A DNA stretch of 40,943 bases from a virus. This document shows, piece after piece, positions 393-11,687 of this stretch; the stretch's first letter is position 1; every line of letters begins with the position of its first letter. The stretch covers positions 1 through 40,943 of IMG/VR virus record IMGVR_UViG_3300032180_000021. The stretch is one strand, 5' to 3'. The notes beneath the pieces were generated by a model, which worked only from the letters and a program-made list of their open reading frames with translations, was not told where the DNA came from and ran no database searches. The translations under genes and the position numbers were made by a program.

Positions 393-1517
393 TCAATGTC
401 CATTCCGTCCACTCGTTTGGGCAGAGAGCGGTCTGAACATACCGCGCATCGGATTGTCCACAAGACCGGCACGCTTGAGGCGATCGATCATCCGGGACAT
501 CTGGCGCTCGGCGGCGTCTGGTTTGGTGGAGGGGTCGATGATTGCGGCGGCGCGACAGTGATCGAACCAGGCTTCGCGCTTTGCGCAGGAACCGTTGGCG
601 AGCATGGTCAAGGCGGCGAAGGCTTGCGTTTCCTGGCCCGAGAGCTTGGCGCTGCCGGTGTCCATGGGTGTGGCTTCAGCTGGGTGGACGATGCAGGTGG
701 TTACGAGATCGCCTTCTTGATCGGCGCCCAGAACGACCTGGTCGAGTTTGAAGGCGAATCCGCCTCCAATTTCACCATCTCTGAGCTTCGTGATGCGCGC
801 CTGGCGTGCTTGCCCCTCGTGCACGATATGGATCTCGGCGTCGACGGCCGCCTTGAGTGAGGAGTGGCCGCGCGCGCCCGCCAGTTCGTTCTTGCCGGCG
901 TGATGGACGCCCAGCACCGCGCAGCCCACGTTGTTGCGGATCGCGCGCATGGCGGCGATGAAGGCTCCCATCCCCTCAGAGGTATTCTCGTTTTCACCGG
1001 ACATGACGGAGCTGACCGTATCGATGATCACCAGCACGATCGGCATTCGATAGCGTTGGGCAAGCTCGACGCAAGCCTTAATGACGTCACGCGCGTCGTC
1101 GCCTACCTCGGGAGCGCCGCCGCGTTCGCCTCGCTGCACAAAATTGAGCGAGTTACGGATGACGGCGAGGGGCGCCTGTTCGACGCCGTACTCCTTCTTC
1201 AGGGCGACTATCCGGTTCATGAAGGACCCCGGCGCCTCGGCGGCCAGATAGACAACGAGGCCCTGCTGAGTGCGCCGGCCCAGGCACTCGCGGCCCGTGG
1301 ATACGCAGAATGCGAGATGGCCTGCCAGGAAAGTTTTCCCGCAGCCGGACTCGCCATAGAAGACGGCGAGTTCCTGAGCGCCGATCAGTCCTTTGACGAC
1401 GTAGCGGCGGTTGAGATTGAGCCCTACGTCGCCCAGCATGACCACATCCAGCCCAGCGTAAGGTTTGGGGGAATCAGCGCCCTGCCGCCCGTCAGCGGCG
1501 GTCTGGTCGGGGTGCAT
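393..1517 (-). CDS. RepA-like AAA ATPase / replicative helicase
   Basis: A 374-aa P-loop ATPase resembling plasmid/phage RepA-type hexameric helicases (AAA_25 group). Walker A GESGCGKT is at residues 55-62, a hydrophobic Walker B strand ends in D166 (VLVIIDT), and a GVHHAGK motif at about 203-209 matches the conserved His/sensor loop of this group. The C-terminal 80 residues look like a winged helix (R-Q-M-S-R-M-I-D-R-L-K-R-A-G-L-V pattern). Likely role: unwinding or helicase loading during phage DNA replication. It is the last gene of the left early arm, and its start overlaps the upstream stop (TGATG). No separate primase or polymerase is visible, so host replication enzymes are probably used. 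Confidence 0.85.
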   Translation of the reverse strand: MHPDQTAADGRQGADSPKPYAGLDVVMLGDVGLNLNRRYVVKGLIGAQELAVFYGESGCGKTFLAGHLAFCVSTGRECLGRRTQQGLVVYLAAEAPGSFMNRIVALKKEYGVEQAPLAVIRNSLNFVQRGERGGAPEVGDDARDVIKACVELAQRYRMPIVLVIIDTVSSVMSGENENTSEGMGAFIAAMRAIRNNVGCAVLGVHHAGKNELAGARGHSSLKAAVDAEIHIVHEGQARQARITKLRDGEIGGGFAFKLDQVVLGADQEGDLVTTCIVHPAEATPMDTGSAKLSGQETQAFAALTMLANGSCAKREAWFDHCRAAAIIDPSTKPDAAERQMSRMIDRLKRAGLVDNPMRGMFRPLSAQTSGRNGH

Positions 1518-2269: not shown

Positions 2270-2800
2270 TTAAGTCCAGTCGATCAGTTTCACGGCGTCC
2301 TCGATGCATGTGACGACGCCGGCGATGGCGTTGGCCTGGCGGGCGAGGAACAGGAAGTCGCGCTGCTCGGGTGTCAGGCGGCCGCGGGTGCTCGGCCGCT
2401 TGCACTCGAGGTAGATCGCCCGGCAGGGATCACGGAGCAGGCCGTGCACGTCGGGAAAGCCCTTCACGGTGTTGAACGCCTGGAAACGCTGCCGACCGTA
2501 GCTGTCGGTCTCGACCGATGTCCCGCGGTTGAACCGGCCGACGAACACGCAGTCGGGCCGGCTCTGGATGTAGGCGATCACGGCTTTCACGACGTCGCGC
2601 TCGAGCGGCTCGGTGGAGGCGGAGCGCTGCTTGCGCGGTGGCGCGCGCTCCGGCGGGCCCGCGGTGAGCGACTCGGGCGGCATGCCCAGGCGGAGCAGCT
2701 CCTTGTCCTCAGGCACGGCAGCTTCGTAGAAGCGCATCGCAGCCGCGTTCTCGCGCAGCTGCTGGCGGAGCGGTTTACGGCCGCGGAAGCCCCCCGTCAC
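2270..2800 (-). CDS. VRR-NUC domain nuclease
   Basis: A 176-aa PD-(D/E)XK nuclease of the VRR-NUC family, which in phages is usually a stand-alone structure-specific DNA nuclease. The catalytic set is visible: E68 in a helix, GFPD with D117, then YLECK with E132 and K134, and QRDFL with Q146. The frame is open much further upstream, but that extension is the out-of-frame shadow of the preceding gene; GTG at 2800 overlaps the upstream stop (GTGA), the coupling pattern used throughout this genome. Position next to the RepA-like ATPase suggests work on replication or recombination intermediates. Confidence 0.88.
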   Translation of the reverse strand: MTGGFRGRKPLRQQLRENAAAMRFYEAAVPEDKELLRLGMPPESLTAGPPERAPPRKQRSASTEPLERDVVKAVIAYIQSRPDCVFVGRFNRGTSVETDSYGRQRFQAFNTVKGFPDVHGLLRDPCRAIYLECKRPSTRGRLTPEQRDFLFLARQANAIAGVVTCIEDAVKLIDWT

Positions 2801-3081
2801 AGATACACCTTGCGCTCGGGCAGCCCGACGTCGCGGATCGCCTGGAATCTTCTGTAGAGCGTCGAGGCGTCGTCGTTGCGACCCTCGATGCAGGCGGTGA
2901 CGAACTCCTGCCAGGCGCTGGCGAGCGGCGTGAGCACATCGCCGGCGGCGTCCTTCCACTTCTCCCAGGCCGAGCGCGGGCTGACACCGACCGCGTCGAC
3001 GCCATCGCCCTCGCAGATCCACCAGGGCTGTGCATCGGGACCGAGCAGATCGAGCCGATGGATGCGCACGCGCGGCTTCAT
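2797..3081 (-). CDS. Hypothetical protein (94 aa)
   Basis: A 94-aa protein with a start at ATG 3081 preceded by AGGA. It has a beta-rich opening (KPRVRIHRLDLLGPDAQPWWICEG, shown in part by residues 2-20) with two Trp and one Cys, then a long helix around residues 38-70. This compact shape is common in small phage early proteins but I cannot assign a family. It is coupled to the VRR-NUC gene by a GTGA overlap. Confidence 0.7.
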   Translation of the reverse strand: MKPRVRIHRLDLLGPDAQPWWICEGDGVDAVGVSPRSAWEKWKDAAGDVLTPLASAWQEFVTACIEGRNDDASTLYRRFQAIRDVGLPERKVYL

Positions 3082-3119
3082 GGGCGTATCCTGGCGCGGT
3101 CGTCAGACAGGGAGGCGTC

Positions 3120-3449
3120 ATGCGGATCACACTTCTGTTGCTGTGCGCAGTATTGGCAGGCCGGGCGACTGCGGCCGGCTACGGCGTCGGCGCGGGGCTG
3201 TACGAAGGACTCCGCCAGATGGAAGCGGACAACCGCGTCGATAACTGCATTCGGGCATGCGGGCAGAATGGCTACTGTCAGGCGAGCTGCATGGGCGCCG
3301 CGCCGCCGCCGCAACCTGTCGTGCAGCCGCAGGTCCAGCCGATTCCTGTCCCGCAGAAGCAGACCGACTGGTCGTGCGTGAACATGTTGATCAACAACAA
3401 AGCGATGCCGTACGACACGGCGAAGGCGATGGAGCTTTGCCAGCGGTAG
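3120..3449 (+). CDS. Secreted cysteine-rich small protein, moron candidate
   Basis: A 109-aa protein on the opposite strand to its neighbours. GGAGG at 3111-3115 precedes ATG 3120. The N-terminus is a classic signal peptide (MRITLLLLCAVLAGRATA, cleavage after about residue 18). The mature part has six Cys: four in NCIRAC...YCQASC, and two more near the end (WSC, ELC), separated by a Pro/Gln/Val-rich linker. Six Cys in an exported protein suggest disulphides in the periplasm. Placement in a gap of an oppositely directed operon and its own RBS fit an independently expressed moron (lysogenic conversion gene). Function unknown. Confidence 0.7.
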   Translation: MRITLLLLCAVLAGRATAAGYGVGAGLYEGLRQMEADNRVDNCIRACGQNGYCQASCMGAAPPPQPVVQPQVQPIPVPQKQTDWSCVNMLINNKAMPYDTAKAMELCQR

Positions 3450-3888: not shown

Positions 3889-4095
3889 TTATGCGGGGGT
3901 GGCCAGCGCGGCGCGCGATGTGCGCCGGTCGAGAATCTTGGAAATGCGCTCGAGGGTGCTGGCCCGAACACCAGATTCCCCTTTTCGGATGCGGTCCAGC
4001 TGACGGTCAGAAACGCCGACCGTCGCCCCCAAGTCCTTCAGCTGCCGCCGGTTCATTGGCTTGAGCAGAGCGACGAGTTCGCTTTCGGTCATCAT
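3889..4095 (-). CDS. Cro-like HTH regulator
   Basis: A 68-aa HTH protein (RQLKDLGATVGVSDRQLDRI, about residues 17-36) that is first in the leftward transcript and divergent from the repressor gene, so it is the Cro-position protein. Two adjacent ATGs (4095, 4092) can start it. The promoter -10 at 4107-4112 predicts a transcript start near 4100, only about five bases before the ATG and with no Shine-Dalgarno, so the mRNA is probably near-leaderless. It likely binds the 18-bp palindromes at 4111-4170 and 4662-4701. Confidence 0.75.
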   Translation of the reverse strand: MMTESELVALLKPMNRRQLKDLGATVGVSDRQLDRIRKGESGVRASTLERISKILDRRTSRAALATPA

Positions 4096-4106
4096 GATGG
4101 GCGGCT

Positions 4107-4135
4107 AGCCTAAGACACGAATGTCTTATTGTCAA
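4107..4135 (-). promoter_or_regulatory. Leftward early promoter
   Basis: Minus strand: -35 TTGACA at 4130-4135, 17-base spacer, -10 TAGGCT at 4107-4112. The spacer holds operator O1. The arrangement is nearly identical to the rightward promoter at 4677-4705 (TTGACG, 17 bases, TAGGCT), so both arms should be repressed by the same protein. Confidence 0.8.
4111..4128. promoter_or_regulatory. Operator O1
   Basis: Perfect 18-bp palindrome TAAGACA-CGAA-TGTCTTA inside the spacer of the leftward promoter. It shares the core AAGACACGAATGTCTT with O4 at 4684-4701. A half-site AAGACAC at 4134-4140 lies 22 bases to the right. Confidence 0.85.
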
Positions 4136-4152
4136 GACACCTTCGCGACCCC

Positions 4153-4170
4153 TGAGACGGTAATGTCTCA
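4153..4170. promoter_or_regulatory. Operator O2
   Basis: Near-perfect palindrome TGAGACG-GTAA-TGTCTCA (one mismatched pair), 42 bases from O1, about four helical turns. It covers a possible -10 (TAATGT, 4161-4166) for the repressor gene, so it may give autoregulation. Confidence 0.8.
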
Positions 4171-4174
4171 CGGT

Positions 4175-4558
4175 ATGGGAGTCGACAGAAAGCGGCGCAG
4201 CGAGCCCGCCAAGATCCTGGCGGCGAACCTCAGGGCGTTCCTGAAGGCCAAGGGATGGTCGCAGAACGACTTCGAGACCGAATCCCACGGTAAGATGAAG
4301 CAGCGCGAGCTCGGCCGCCTGGTGGGTCCAGACGACACGAAGCTACCGGATGGCAACTGCAACCTCTTGACCTTGGAAACGCTGGCGGAAATCACTGGCG
4401 CTCAGCCCTGGCAGCTCCTCGTGAAAGGTCTCAACTGGGACACGGTAAAGACCTTACGGCCCGTGGATGAGAAGGACATAATCGAGGCGTTGCAAGTCCA
4501 GCAGCAGGTAACTGAAAGTCTTAAGAAACTGTCTCACGCCATCCCTCCGAAGAAGTAG
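4175..4558 (+). CDS. CI-like repressor without peptidase domain
   Basis: A 127-aa XRE-type HTH protein (from ATG 4175; the frame also offers ATG 4121 and 4163, but these fall inside operators O1 and O2). The segment KILAANLRAFLKAKGWSQND at about residues 11-30 begins the HTH; a second conserved stretch ends at WQLLVKG. A basic N-terminus is followed by a helical tail that could dimerise. There is no S24/LexA-like autopeptidase domain, so classic RecA-triggered self-cleavage is not expected. No Shine-Dalgarno precedes ATG 4175, and the possible -10 TAATGT at 4161-4166 would start the mRNA at the ATG, as for leaderless lambda cI. Confidence 0.8.
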   Translation: MGVDRKRRSEPAKILAANLRAFLKAKGWSQNDFETESHGKMKQRELGRLVGPDDTKLPDGNCNLLTLETLAEITGAQPWQLLVKGLNWDTVKTLRPVDEKDIIEALQVQQQVTESLKKLSHAIPPKK

Positions 4559-4661
4559 TCAGTTCAGCTTGTCGTTGTCAAGCCGCCGGGCCCCAATTCC
4601 GGCATCTCGTTCCCCCATAAACTGACACTCGGTCTCCGAATTGACATGTTAGACACAAAAG
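4559..4661. other. Short non-coding stretch between repressor and early operators
   Basis: About 100 bases without a gene. A weak 5-bp GCCGG/CCGGC stem lacks a T-run, so no terminator is called. A TAGACAC half-site at 4650-4656 is out of phase with O3. Confidence 0.4.
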
Positions 4662-4679
4662 CAAGACACGAACGTCTTG
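4662..4679. promoter_or_regulatory. Operator O3
   Basis: Palindrome CAAGACA-CGAA-CGTCTTG with one mismatched pair. It overlaps the -35 box of the rightward early promoter and lies 22 bases (two helical turns) from O4, as expected for cooperative dimers. Confidence 0.85.
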
Positions 4680-4705
4680 ACGTTGAGACACGAATGTCTT
4701 AGGCT
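4677..4705 (+). promoter_or_regulatory. Rightward early promoter
   Basis: -35 TTGACG (4677-4682), 17-base spacer, -10 TAGGCT (4700-4705). O3 overlaps the -35 and O4 fills the spacer, so repressor binding would block it. A leader of about 24 bases then reaches ATG 4736 with its GGAG. This should drive the rightward early arm up to integrase. Confidence 0.8.
4684..4701. promoter_or_regulatory. Operator O4
   Basis: Palindrome TGAGACA-CGAA-TGTCTTA with one mismatched pair; its core is identical to O1. It lies in the spacer of the rightward early promoter at the same position that O1 occupies in the leftward one. Confidence 0.85.
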
Positions 4706-4942: not shown

Positions 4943-5139
4943 CCCACGAAGAACTGGCCGGCGCGCTTCTCGGGTTTCCACCGCACGATGACCCTGCGCT
5001 CAGAGCATGTGTCGACGTCGCGACGTTCACCGAAGTCGAGGAGCTCGGTCTGCTGCTACGCGACGTGCTCTTTGCCGAGGGAGACGCGAAGGTTAAGGCC
5101 GAGGAGCAGCTGCGCGCTAAAGCGAGGGAACGACTGTGA
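4939..5139 (+). CDS. Small acidic helical protein (66 aa)
   Basis: A 66-aa protein starting with GTG 4939, overlapping the previous stop (GTGA). It is mostly helical and acidic, with Leu-rich segments (EELGLLLRDVLFAEG) and a Lys/Arg/Glu-rich C-terminal helix. No family recognised. Confidence 0.6.
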   Translation: MTHEELAGALLGFPPHDDPALRACVDVATFTEVEELGLLLRDVLFAEGDAKVKAEEQLRAKARERL

Positions 5140-5219: not shown

Positions 5220-5374
5220 GCGCCTGGGGCTGCCTGATGCGCATGCGCCGGCAGGGTTATCCGGCCTGGTACCTGCGTCAGTGGCTCGACGCTGTTCGCT
5301 GGCTGCGCAAGCAAAACAAGTGGCTCCTGGATCGTCCGACGGTGCGGGTAACAGAACAGAGGGGATCTAAGTGA
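5213..5374 (+). CDS. Basic small protein (53 aa)
   Basis: A 53-aa protein starting at ATG 5213 inside the end of the previous gene. It is rich in Arg, Trp and Lys (MRMRRQGYPAWYLRQWLDAV, then a basic stretch) and looks like one amphipathic helix with a basic tail. Its stop overlaps the GTG of the exonuclease gene. No family recognised; nucleic-acid or membrane contact is possible. Confidence 0.55.
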   Translation: MVSAWGCLMRMRRQGYPAWYLRQWLDAVRWLRKQNKWLLDRPTVRVTEQRGSK

Positions 5375-6216
5375 CTCCTGGGATTTTTCCGAACATGGGT
5401 GAGGAGCAGTACCACGCCGATCCGGCGCCGATGCCATCGCTCTCTCGGGGAACGATCTGCGACCTGATCTACCGCTCGCCCGCGCATGCGTGGATCGACC
5501 ACCCGCGGCTTAATCCCACTTGGCAGCCGGACGTCGACAAGAAGTTCGACGTGGGCCAGGCATCCCACGATGCACTGCTCTGTGGCATGGAGCGCGTGCA
5601 GCCGCTCGACTTCCCGGACTGGCGGACGAAGGCCGCGCGGGATGCGCGCGAAGGCGTGCGCTCGATCGGGAAGCTCCCGGTGCTGGTCCGCCAGTACGAG
5701 AAGATCGAACGCATGGTCGTCGCCGCCCGGAAGTTCTGGAAGGACTGCCCGGATCTGGATGGCTTCGCGTTCGAGCACGGCACGACCGAGGTCAGCGCGT
5801 TCTGGCTCGAGGACTCGACCTGGTGCCGCGTGCGGTGGGATTGGATATCGAACGACAAGCGGCTGATCGTCGACTACAAGACAACGGAGAACGCCGGCGC
5901 GGACTGGCCGCGGCGCTCGATCGTCGCGCACGGCCTGGACATCCAGGATCACTGGTACCGGCGCGGAGCTCGCGCGGTGATCGGTGGCGATCCGTCGTTC
6001 GTGTTCCTGGTCCAGGAGGTCGATCCGCCCTACGCGGTGCAGGCCTTTGCGCTGGAGCCTGCGTTCCAGGAGATCGGCAAGGCGAAGTGCGACGTCGGCC
6101 TGCGTATCTGGCGTGAGTGCCTGGAGCGCAACGAGTGGCCGGCGTACCAGAACCGCATCGCCTACGTCGAACCGAACGCCTGGCAGATGGCGGAAGCGGA
6201 GGCGATGGAATCATGA
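5371..6216 (+). CDS. RecE/Cas4-like exonuclease (PDDEXK)
   Basis: A 281-aa nuclease resembling the RecE-type DUF3799 family, which resects double-stranded DNA ends to leave single strands for annealing. Visible motifs in RecB/Cas4 order: GQASH with H66, E140, RWDW with D157, VDYKT with D168 and K170, then Q192 and Y196. Starts with GTG 5371, overlapping the upstream stop (GTGA). It lies two genes before a RecA-fold ATPase, forming the usual exonuclease/annealing pair for phage recombination. Confidence 0.85.
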   Translation: MTPGIFPNMGEEQYHADPAPMPSLSRGTICDLIYRSPAHAWIDHPRLNPTWQPDVDKKFDVGQASHDALLCGMERVQPLDFPDWRTKAARDAREGVRSIGKLPVLVRQYEKIERMVVAARKFWKDCPDLDGFAFEHGTTEVSAFWLEDSTWCRVRWDWISNDKRLIVDYKTTENAGADWPRRSIVAHGLDIQDHWYRRGARAVIGGDPSFVFLVQEVDPPYAVQAFALEPAFQEIGKAKCDVGLRIWRECLERNEWPAYQNRIAYVEPNAWQMAEAEAMES

Positions 6217-10555: not shown

Positions 10556-10893
10556 ACGTTCTCACGATCCCGGAGGTGGCAGAGCGCCTCAAGGTCTGCA
10601 CCGATACGGTACGAGCCGAAATCGCGCGTGGCCATATAATCGCGGCCCGCGTGGGAGCGCAGTATCGAATACGAGAAGAAAGCCTTCAGAAGTACCTTGA
10701 AGACAAGGAGAAAGAGTCATGCCGTATCGCCTTAGAAACGGTCGCTGGCAGATTCGCGTCTCAACAGGTCAGGGCAAGCGCATTGAAGTTACGCTTCCGC
10801 CCGGCGCGAAAGAGCGAGACGCCCACCTCAAAGAAGCTCAGATCCTCCGCGCGCAGGTCGATCTTTCGGCTGGTATCAAACCGAGAATCCTGA
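10552..10893 (+). CDS. Excisionase-like HTH protein
   Basis: A 113-aa frame starting at ATG 10552 (ATGA overlap). Residues 1-55 are a clear MerR/excisionase-type winged HTH (LTIPEVAERLKVCTDTVRAE, then AARVGAQYRIREESLQKYL). The last 58 residues run in a different frame over the start of integrase and are basic but otherwise unlike a protein domain. As in lambda, xis and int overlap, here by about 175 bases. Likely the directionality factor for excision. A truncated or frameshifted form ending near 10720 would still keep the HTH. Confidence 0.75.
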   Translation: MNVLTIPEVAERLKVCTDTVRAEIARGHIIAARVGAQYRIREESLQKYLEDKEKESCRIALETVAGRFASQQVRASALKLRFRPARKSETPTSKKLRSSARRSIFRLVSNRES

Positions 10894-11687
10894 TCGACGA
10901 TGCGCTTACCGACTGGGAGGAGTCGGAGGCCGTTCTGCTGAAGTCGTATCAGAAGGATCTTCGCTATCGAATCGACATCCTACGATCAGCCTTCACCGGC
11001 GGAAAGTATTTGGACGAGATCGAGAAAGTAGCGGAGCGCGTGAAGAAGGTGGGGAACGCTGGAGGTTTAAAGCCGGCCACCATAAACAGGCTGCTGGCGA
11101 TCCTCAGGAGGATAGGTCGGATCAACAGGGCCCAGGCGACGATCAGTCTGTTGCCCGGCGAGAGATCCCGGCAGGTCTATCTGACGGCGGAGGAAGTGAA
11201 TCTGCTGTGTGAGAAAGCGGACCCTAGGCTGGCGGATTTCATTCACTTCGCGTGCCTCTCCGGAATGCGCCGGGGAGAAATTCTGCGGCTTGAGCCTCAT
11301 CACCTGAAAGACGGCGCGGCCCTCATCGAGGTTTCGAAGTCCGGGCGTCCGCGCAGGGTACCGCTCCCGCCGGAGGCGCTGGAGATCGCCGAACGATGCC
11401 TGCCGTTCAATTTGACGGCGACGAATATCAATCGGATGTTTCGGCACGCCAGGACTGTGGCCGGTCTGCCGCACGTGAGGCTGCATGACCTTCGGCACAC
11501 GTACGCCTCTTGGCTCGTGCAGTCTGGAGCGTCTCTGACTGCCGTGCGGGATCTACTCGGACATTCCAACCTTGCGGTAACATCGAAATACAGCCACCTG
11601 GCGCCGGGTCATTTACGGAAGGCTGTCGAAGGTTTGCCGGTCCTGGATGGGTCAGGCATGGGTCCGAAAAAGCAAGAAGCGGCGTAA
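10719..11687 (+). CDS. int: Tyrosine integrase
   Basis: A 322-aa tyrosine recombinase with AGGAG before ATG 10719. The N-terminal about 55 residues look like an arm-binding domain; the core-binding part spans about 60-150. The catalytic set is present: R184 in SGMRRGE, a Lys-bearing beta hairpin near 207-213, H256-x-x-R259 in LHDLRHTY, H282 in LGHSN and Y291 in KYSHL. It would recombine the attP immediately downstream (11697-11738) with a tRNA-Ser gene in the host. It is the last gene of the rightward early arm. Confidence 0.93.
   Translation: MPYRLRNGRWQIRVSTGQGKRIEVTLPPGAKERDAHLKEAQILRAQVDLSAGIKPRILIDDALTDWEESEAVLLKSYQKDLRYRIDILRSAFTGGKYLDEIEKVAERVKKVGNAGGLKPATINRLLAILRRIGRINRAQATISLLPGERSRQVYLTAEEVNLLCEKADPRLADFIHFACLSGMRRGEILRLEPHHLKDGAALIEVSKSGRPRRVPLPPEALEIAERCLPFNLTATNINRMFRHARTVAGLPHVRLHDLRHTYASWLVQSGASLTAVRDLLGHSNLAVTSKYSHLAPGHLRKAVEGLPVLDGSGMGPKKQEAA

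Follow-up and report, generated by a model that had tools for sequence, protein, structure and literature searches.

In phage lambda, the repressor gene lies between two operator clusters, with six operators in all. Measured on record J02459 itself, the left and right sides have the same geometry: the −35 begins three bases short of where OL2 or OR2 ends, a 17-bp spacer follows, and four bases of the −10 lie within OL1 or OR1. A close published parallel to the locus described here, as judged from its description, is the PaaR2/YdaS region of CP-933P, a prophage of E. coli O157:H7. It has a short leaderless regulator (His-tagged product of 15,081 Da), a PL with −35 and −10 identical to those of PR, and 18-bp palindromes, some of them lacking one half-site; it differs in being part of a toxin-antitoxin locus and in its operator sequence (PMC8630535). 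The Gifsy prophages of Salmonella are also lambda-like, but their repressor is not self-cleaved and they are induced by LexA-controlled antirepressors (PMC3121763), none of which was identified in our window. Finally, the inducible phage VarioGold (OP296522) presents CI, Cro and CII in the same order as here; the terms "operator" and "palindrom" are absent from the text of its paper (PMC9658991).

The window analyzed in this work is the whole of the IMG/VR virus record IMGVR_UViG_3300032180_000021 (40,943 bases; G+C of 63–65%). We propose that it very probably includes a lambda-like immunity region from a temperate phage, with four operators bound by a repressor for which the 127-aa protein encoded between the two early arms is the most likely candidate. 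There is good support for a switch of the lambda type with an operator word of its own, and this type of switch is already known. The original prediction of a lambda-like switch agrees with the gene content, the operator positions, and the geometry found in lambda and in the relatives reached through CII, while the binder is assigned by inference.

An exact-pattern scan of the window for the palindrome RAGAC-N6-GTCTY returned exactly four sites, the same 18-bp operators that had been claimed, and all of them flank the repressor-position gene, so that both of its ends bear copies of one operator. The chance expectation was a mean of 0.235 sites, with a maximum of 3, in 200 first-order Markov sequences of window length. 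The operator core with up to three mismatches occurred three times in the window versus 0.14 expected. The distances between centres, 22 bp for O3–O4 and 42 bp for O1–O2, were re-measured and are as first given.

The operators overlap the predicted outward promoters of both early arms. O1 and O4 had been placed at the same point of the two 17-bp spacers, and indeed each covers the first two bases of its −10; the claimed overlap of O3 with the rightward −35 amounts to three bases (TTG). The distal element of either arm, O3 on the right and the half-site on the left, has the −35 TTG at its end. Expressed as offset, spacer and −10 overlap, both arms of the window have −3, 17 and 2, versus −3, 17 and 4 in lambda, and the centre spacing of the L arm is 22 bp versus 24 bp. 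The pairs OL1/OL2 and OR1/OR2 thus share the geometry of the window within 2 bp. A strict sigma-70 promoter scan reported no promoter in the scanned sequence, because TAGGCT matches just three of the six bases of the −10 consensus (T, A and the final T) and is a weak −10.

Table 1. Coordinates of the features of the putative immunity region and of the operators found in VarioGold
Feature	Position	Strand	Sequence or basis
Helicase/primase-like protein	393-1517	-	leftward arm
Holliday-junction resolvase-like protein	2270-3130	-	leftward arm
CII-like regulator, 129 aa	3452-3841	-	Pfam PF06892; phrog_101; 33% identical to VarioGold CII
Cro-like HTH protein, 68 aa	3889-4095	-	Pfam HTH_3 and HTH_26 above cut-off; PHROG transcriptional regulators
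Leftward early promoter (PR-like), predicted from sequence	4107-4135	-	TTGACA 4135-4130, N17, TAGGCT 4112-4107
Operator O1 (OR1-like)	4111-4128		TAAGACACGAATGTCTTA; inside spacer of leftward promoter
Half-site (OR2-like), one arm only	4134-4140	+	AAGACAC; minus-strand end is TTG of leftward -35
Operator O2 (OR3-like)	4153-4170		TGAGACGGTAATGTCTCA; covers TAATGT 4161-4166, near repressor-position ATG
Putative short repressor, 127 aa, without S24 domain	4175-4558	+	CI position
Operator O3 (OL2-like)	4662-4679		CAAGACACGAACGTCTTG; last 3 bases are TTG of rightward -35
Rightward early promoter (PL-like), predicted from sequence	4677-4705	+	TTGACG 4677-4682, N17, TAGGCT 4700-4705
Operator O4 (OL1-like)	4684-4701		TGAGACACGAATGTCTTA; inside spacer of rightward promoter
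Exonuclease VIII-like protein	5371-6216	+	rightward arm
Integrase	10719-11687	+	rightward arm
VarioGold operators	L033 6741-6787 and 7540-7595		flank cI; OP296522

The gene order is that of the lambda immunity region. Leftward, the Cro-like protein is followed by the CII-like one and then by the resolvase-like and helicase/primase-like proteins, which gives the divergent cro and, after it, the CII-type activator; the genes for recombination and the integrase occupy the opposite arm, as in lambda. Since one arm carries Cro-like and CII-like genes and the other exonuclease VIII and integrase genes, the phage is temperate by gene content. The locus differs from that of lambda in its operator word, in having four full sites and a half instead of six, in the distance between the O1 and O4 centres (573 bp versus about 2.4 kb for OL1–OR1), in the absence of rex genes, and in a repressor-position protein about half as long and without a cleavable domain. 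The known CII-box pattern of lambda, TTGC-N6-TTGC, is absent from the immunity region of the window. By eye, the same pattern was observed on the reverse strand just upstream of cII in two other sequences, L041 (about 4966–4995) and L042 (about 4965–4990), where it suggests a PRE-like promoter.

The cro side was expected to hold a lambda-like trio, of which two full operators and one half-site are seen, the third site being only a half. A full site at that position would have its centre 22 bp from O1 and 20 bp from O2, and the right half there has no match to the operator. Because the −35 fixes the last three bases of the half-site, no more than about four of its bases count as extra evidence. 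The suggestion that O2 lies over a −10 of the repressor gene stands in part: the −10-like TAATGT is present inside O2, eight bases before the ATG, and no recognizable −35 was found upstream of it. This position would suit a leaderless repressor message, as is that of lambda cI. The half-site centre is about 33 bp before the repressor ATG, versus about 42 bp for OR2 of lambda (J02459 coordinates); with this distance and a putative repressor promoter without a −35, positive control in the style of lambda is only a possibility.

The Cro start of the window is 11 bases past the promoter −10 (4095–4107), and on the R arms of L033, L035, L038, L039, L055, L058, L064 and L065 the cro start codon is 6–9 bases past the −10. 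With start codons this close, the cro messages seem to have little or no leader; for phage PY54, both cI and cro have been reported as leaderless (PMC4488713).

The CII protein was used as search query because the 127-aa protein gave no relatives. It matched Microcystis phage Mae-JY22, VarioGold, viral contigs and prophages in genomes, and the sequence upstream of cII was then searched for operator families in the form of recurrent palindromes. Such families flank cI on both sides: VarioGold carries the word TAGC-N4-GCTA, with two operators at one end of the gene and three at the other; L038 and L039 carry TACCC-N2-GGGTA, and L055 and L058 carry TAGGC-N2-GCCTA. In L035, ACCGGAAT-type sites were recognized by inspection on both sides. 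These six, found by CII alone, present the same promoter geometry as the window with unrelated operator words. In each of the L arms measured, the distal site reaches two to three bases into the −35, with a spacer of 17–18 bp; on the R arm, VarioGold has a nearly full distal site, and that of the window, L038, L039 and L055 is degenerate or a half. The strongest argument for a functional arrangement is this conservation of geometry under differing operator words. An enlarged alignment of CII sequences proved too diverse for scanning. It also follows that the core word finds no relatives, since these carry other words: the proposed search for it in other phages gave scattered single matches only, in about the number given by chance. 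The 28 viral contigs with the exact core were rejected as relatives, as no second exact-core site occurred in any of them and about 28 are expected by chance, by our estimate from 17 partly degenerate letters and the collection size.

The 127-aa protein presented no significant family match in Pfam or PHROG, and no Peptidase S24 domain was found in it with Pfam, a difference from the CI of VarioGold, which has this domain. No relatives were retrieved by peptide pattern among viral and genome contigs or by tblastn among phages. A plasmid match (E=0.8), to a hypothetical protein whose neighbors are DNA methyltransferases, was taken as chance, and so was the one match in 369 genomes, in a frame overlapping an oxidoreductase-like ORF. 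The middle of the protein resembles an HTH-like ORF in L043 (46% over 44 aa) that has PHROG regulator matches, and a fragment matches HTH_3 weakly (E=0.12); an HTH fold seems likely. In an HMM of repressor HTH domains the protein ranked first of 2001, but the L043 member had been chosen by similarity. Built from the repressor domains of the relatives without L043, the HMM placed it not above shuffles; since the signal vanished, the rank is not relied on. A single-sequence AlphaFold model (pLDDT 45) was discarded as a basis. Short proteins also occupy the CI position in several CII-linked relatives (132 aa in L035, 147 aa in L036 and 172 aa in L032).

These results bear on which protein binds the sites. 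The 68-aa Cro-like protein is the only one of the two with a significant HTH match and the 127-aa protein is an orphan, so it might be argued that the former binds the four sites mainly or alone and that the latter is not the repressor but the product of some other gene in its place. We consider this improbable: the gene divergent from cro is a recognizable repressor in CII-linked relatives (an S24 CI in VarioGold, HTH_3 in L035, and Phage_CI_repr in L036), and O2 overlies the start of the 127-aa gene. It is far less credible still that the repeats are not operators at all, but overlapping hairpins, terminators or a chance cluster. A terminator scan does flag O3 as a stem followed by a T-rich tail, and gives no more such flags than chance would; against this, both ends of the gene carry near-identical palindromes, four in all, placed in promoter spacers and in a geometry kept by relatives whose operator words differ.

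In the lambda-like arrangement that we prefer, the repressor, most likely the product of the 127-aa gene, would bind the four 18-bp operators. At O1, helped by the half-site through presumed cooperative filling, it would block the leftward promoter and with it Cro, CII and the replication genes. Bound to O3 and O4, it would block the recombination genes and the integrase, served by the putative rightward promoter. At O2, either the repressor or Cro may limit the transcription of the repressor itself. More speculatively, and in our view rather doubtful, this could be a compact lambda-type switch with its own unrelated family of short, non-cleavable repressors, where a weak half-site stands for OR2 and the repressor promoter has no −35, in which case induction and positive control must differ from those of lambda. 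A short repressor that lacks a protease domain makes one ask what induces prophages of this sort. Even where environmental phages have exchanged their operator words and repressors, the operator-promoter geometry of lambda is conserved to a few bases, so immunity regions are predictable from sequence.

Two named Microcystis phages, L032 (PP438414.1) and L034 (PP395640.1), have early genes in common with the phage of the window. The closest CII kin of L032 include a betaproteobacterial prophage, and the named hosts of both phages may be wrong. The cI-position genes of L032 (7385–7401) and L036 (3313–3329) each contain, at comparable positions, a palindrome ACTCA(C)...(G)TGAGT that resembles the operators upstream of cro.
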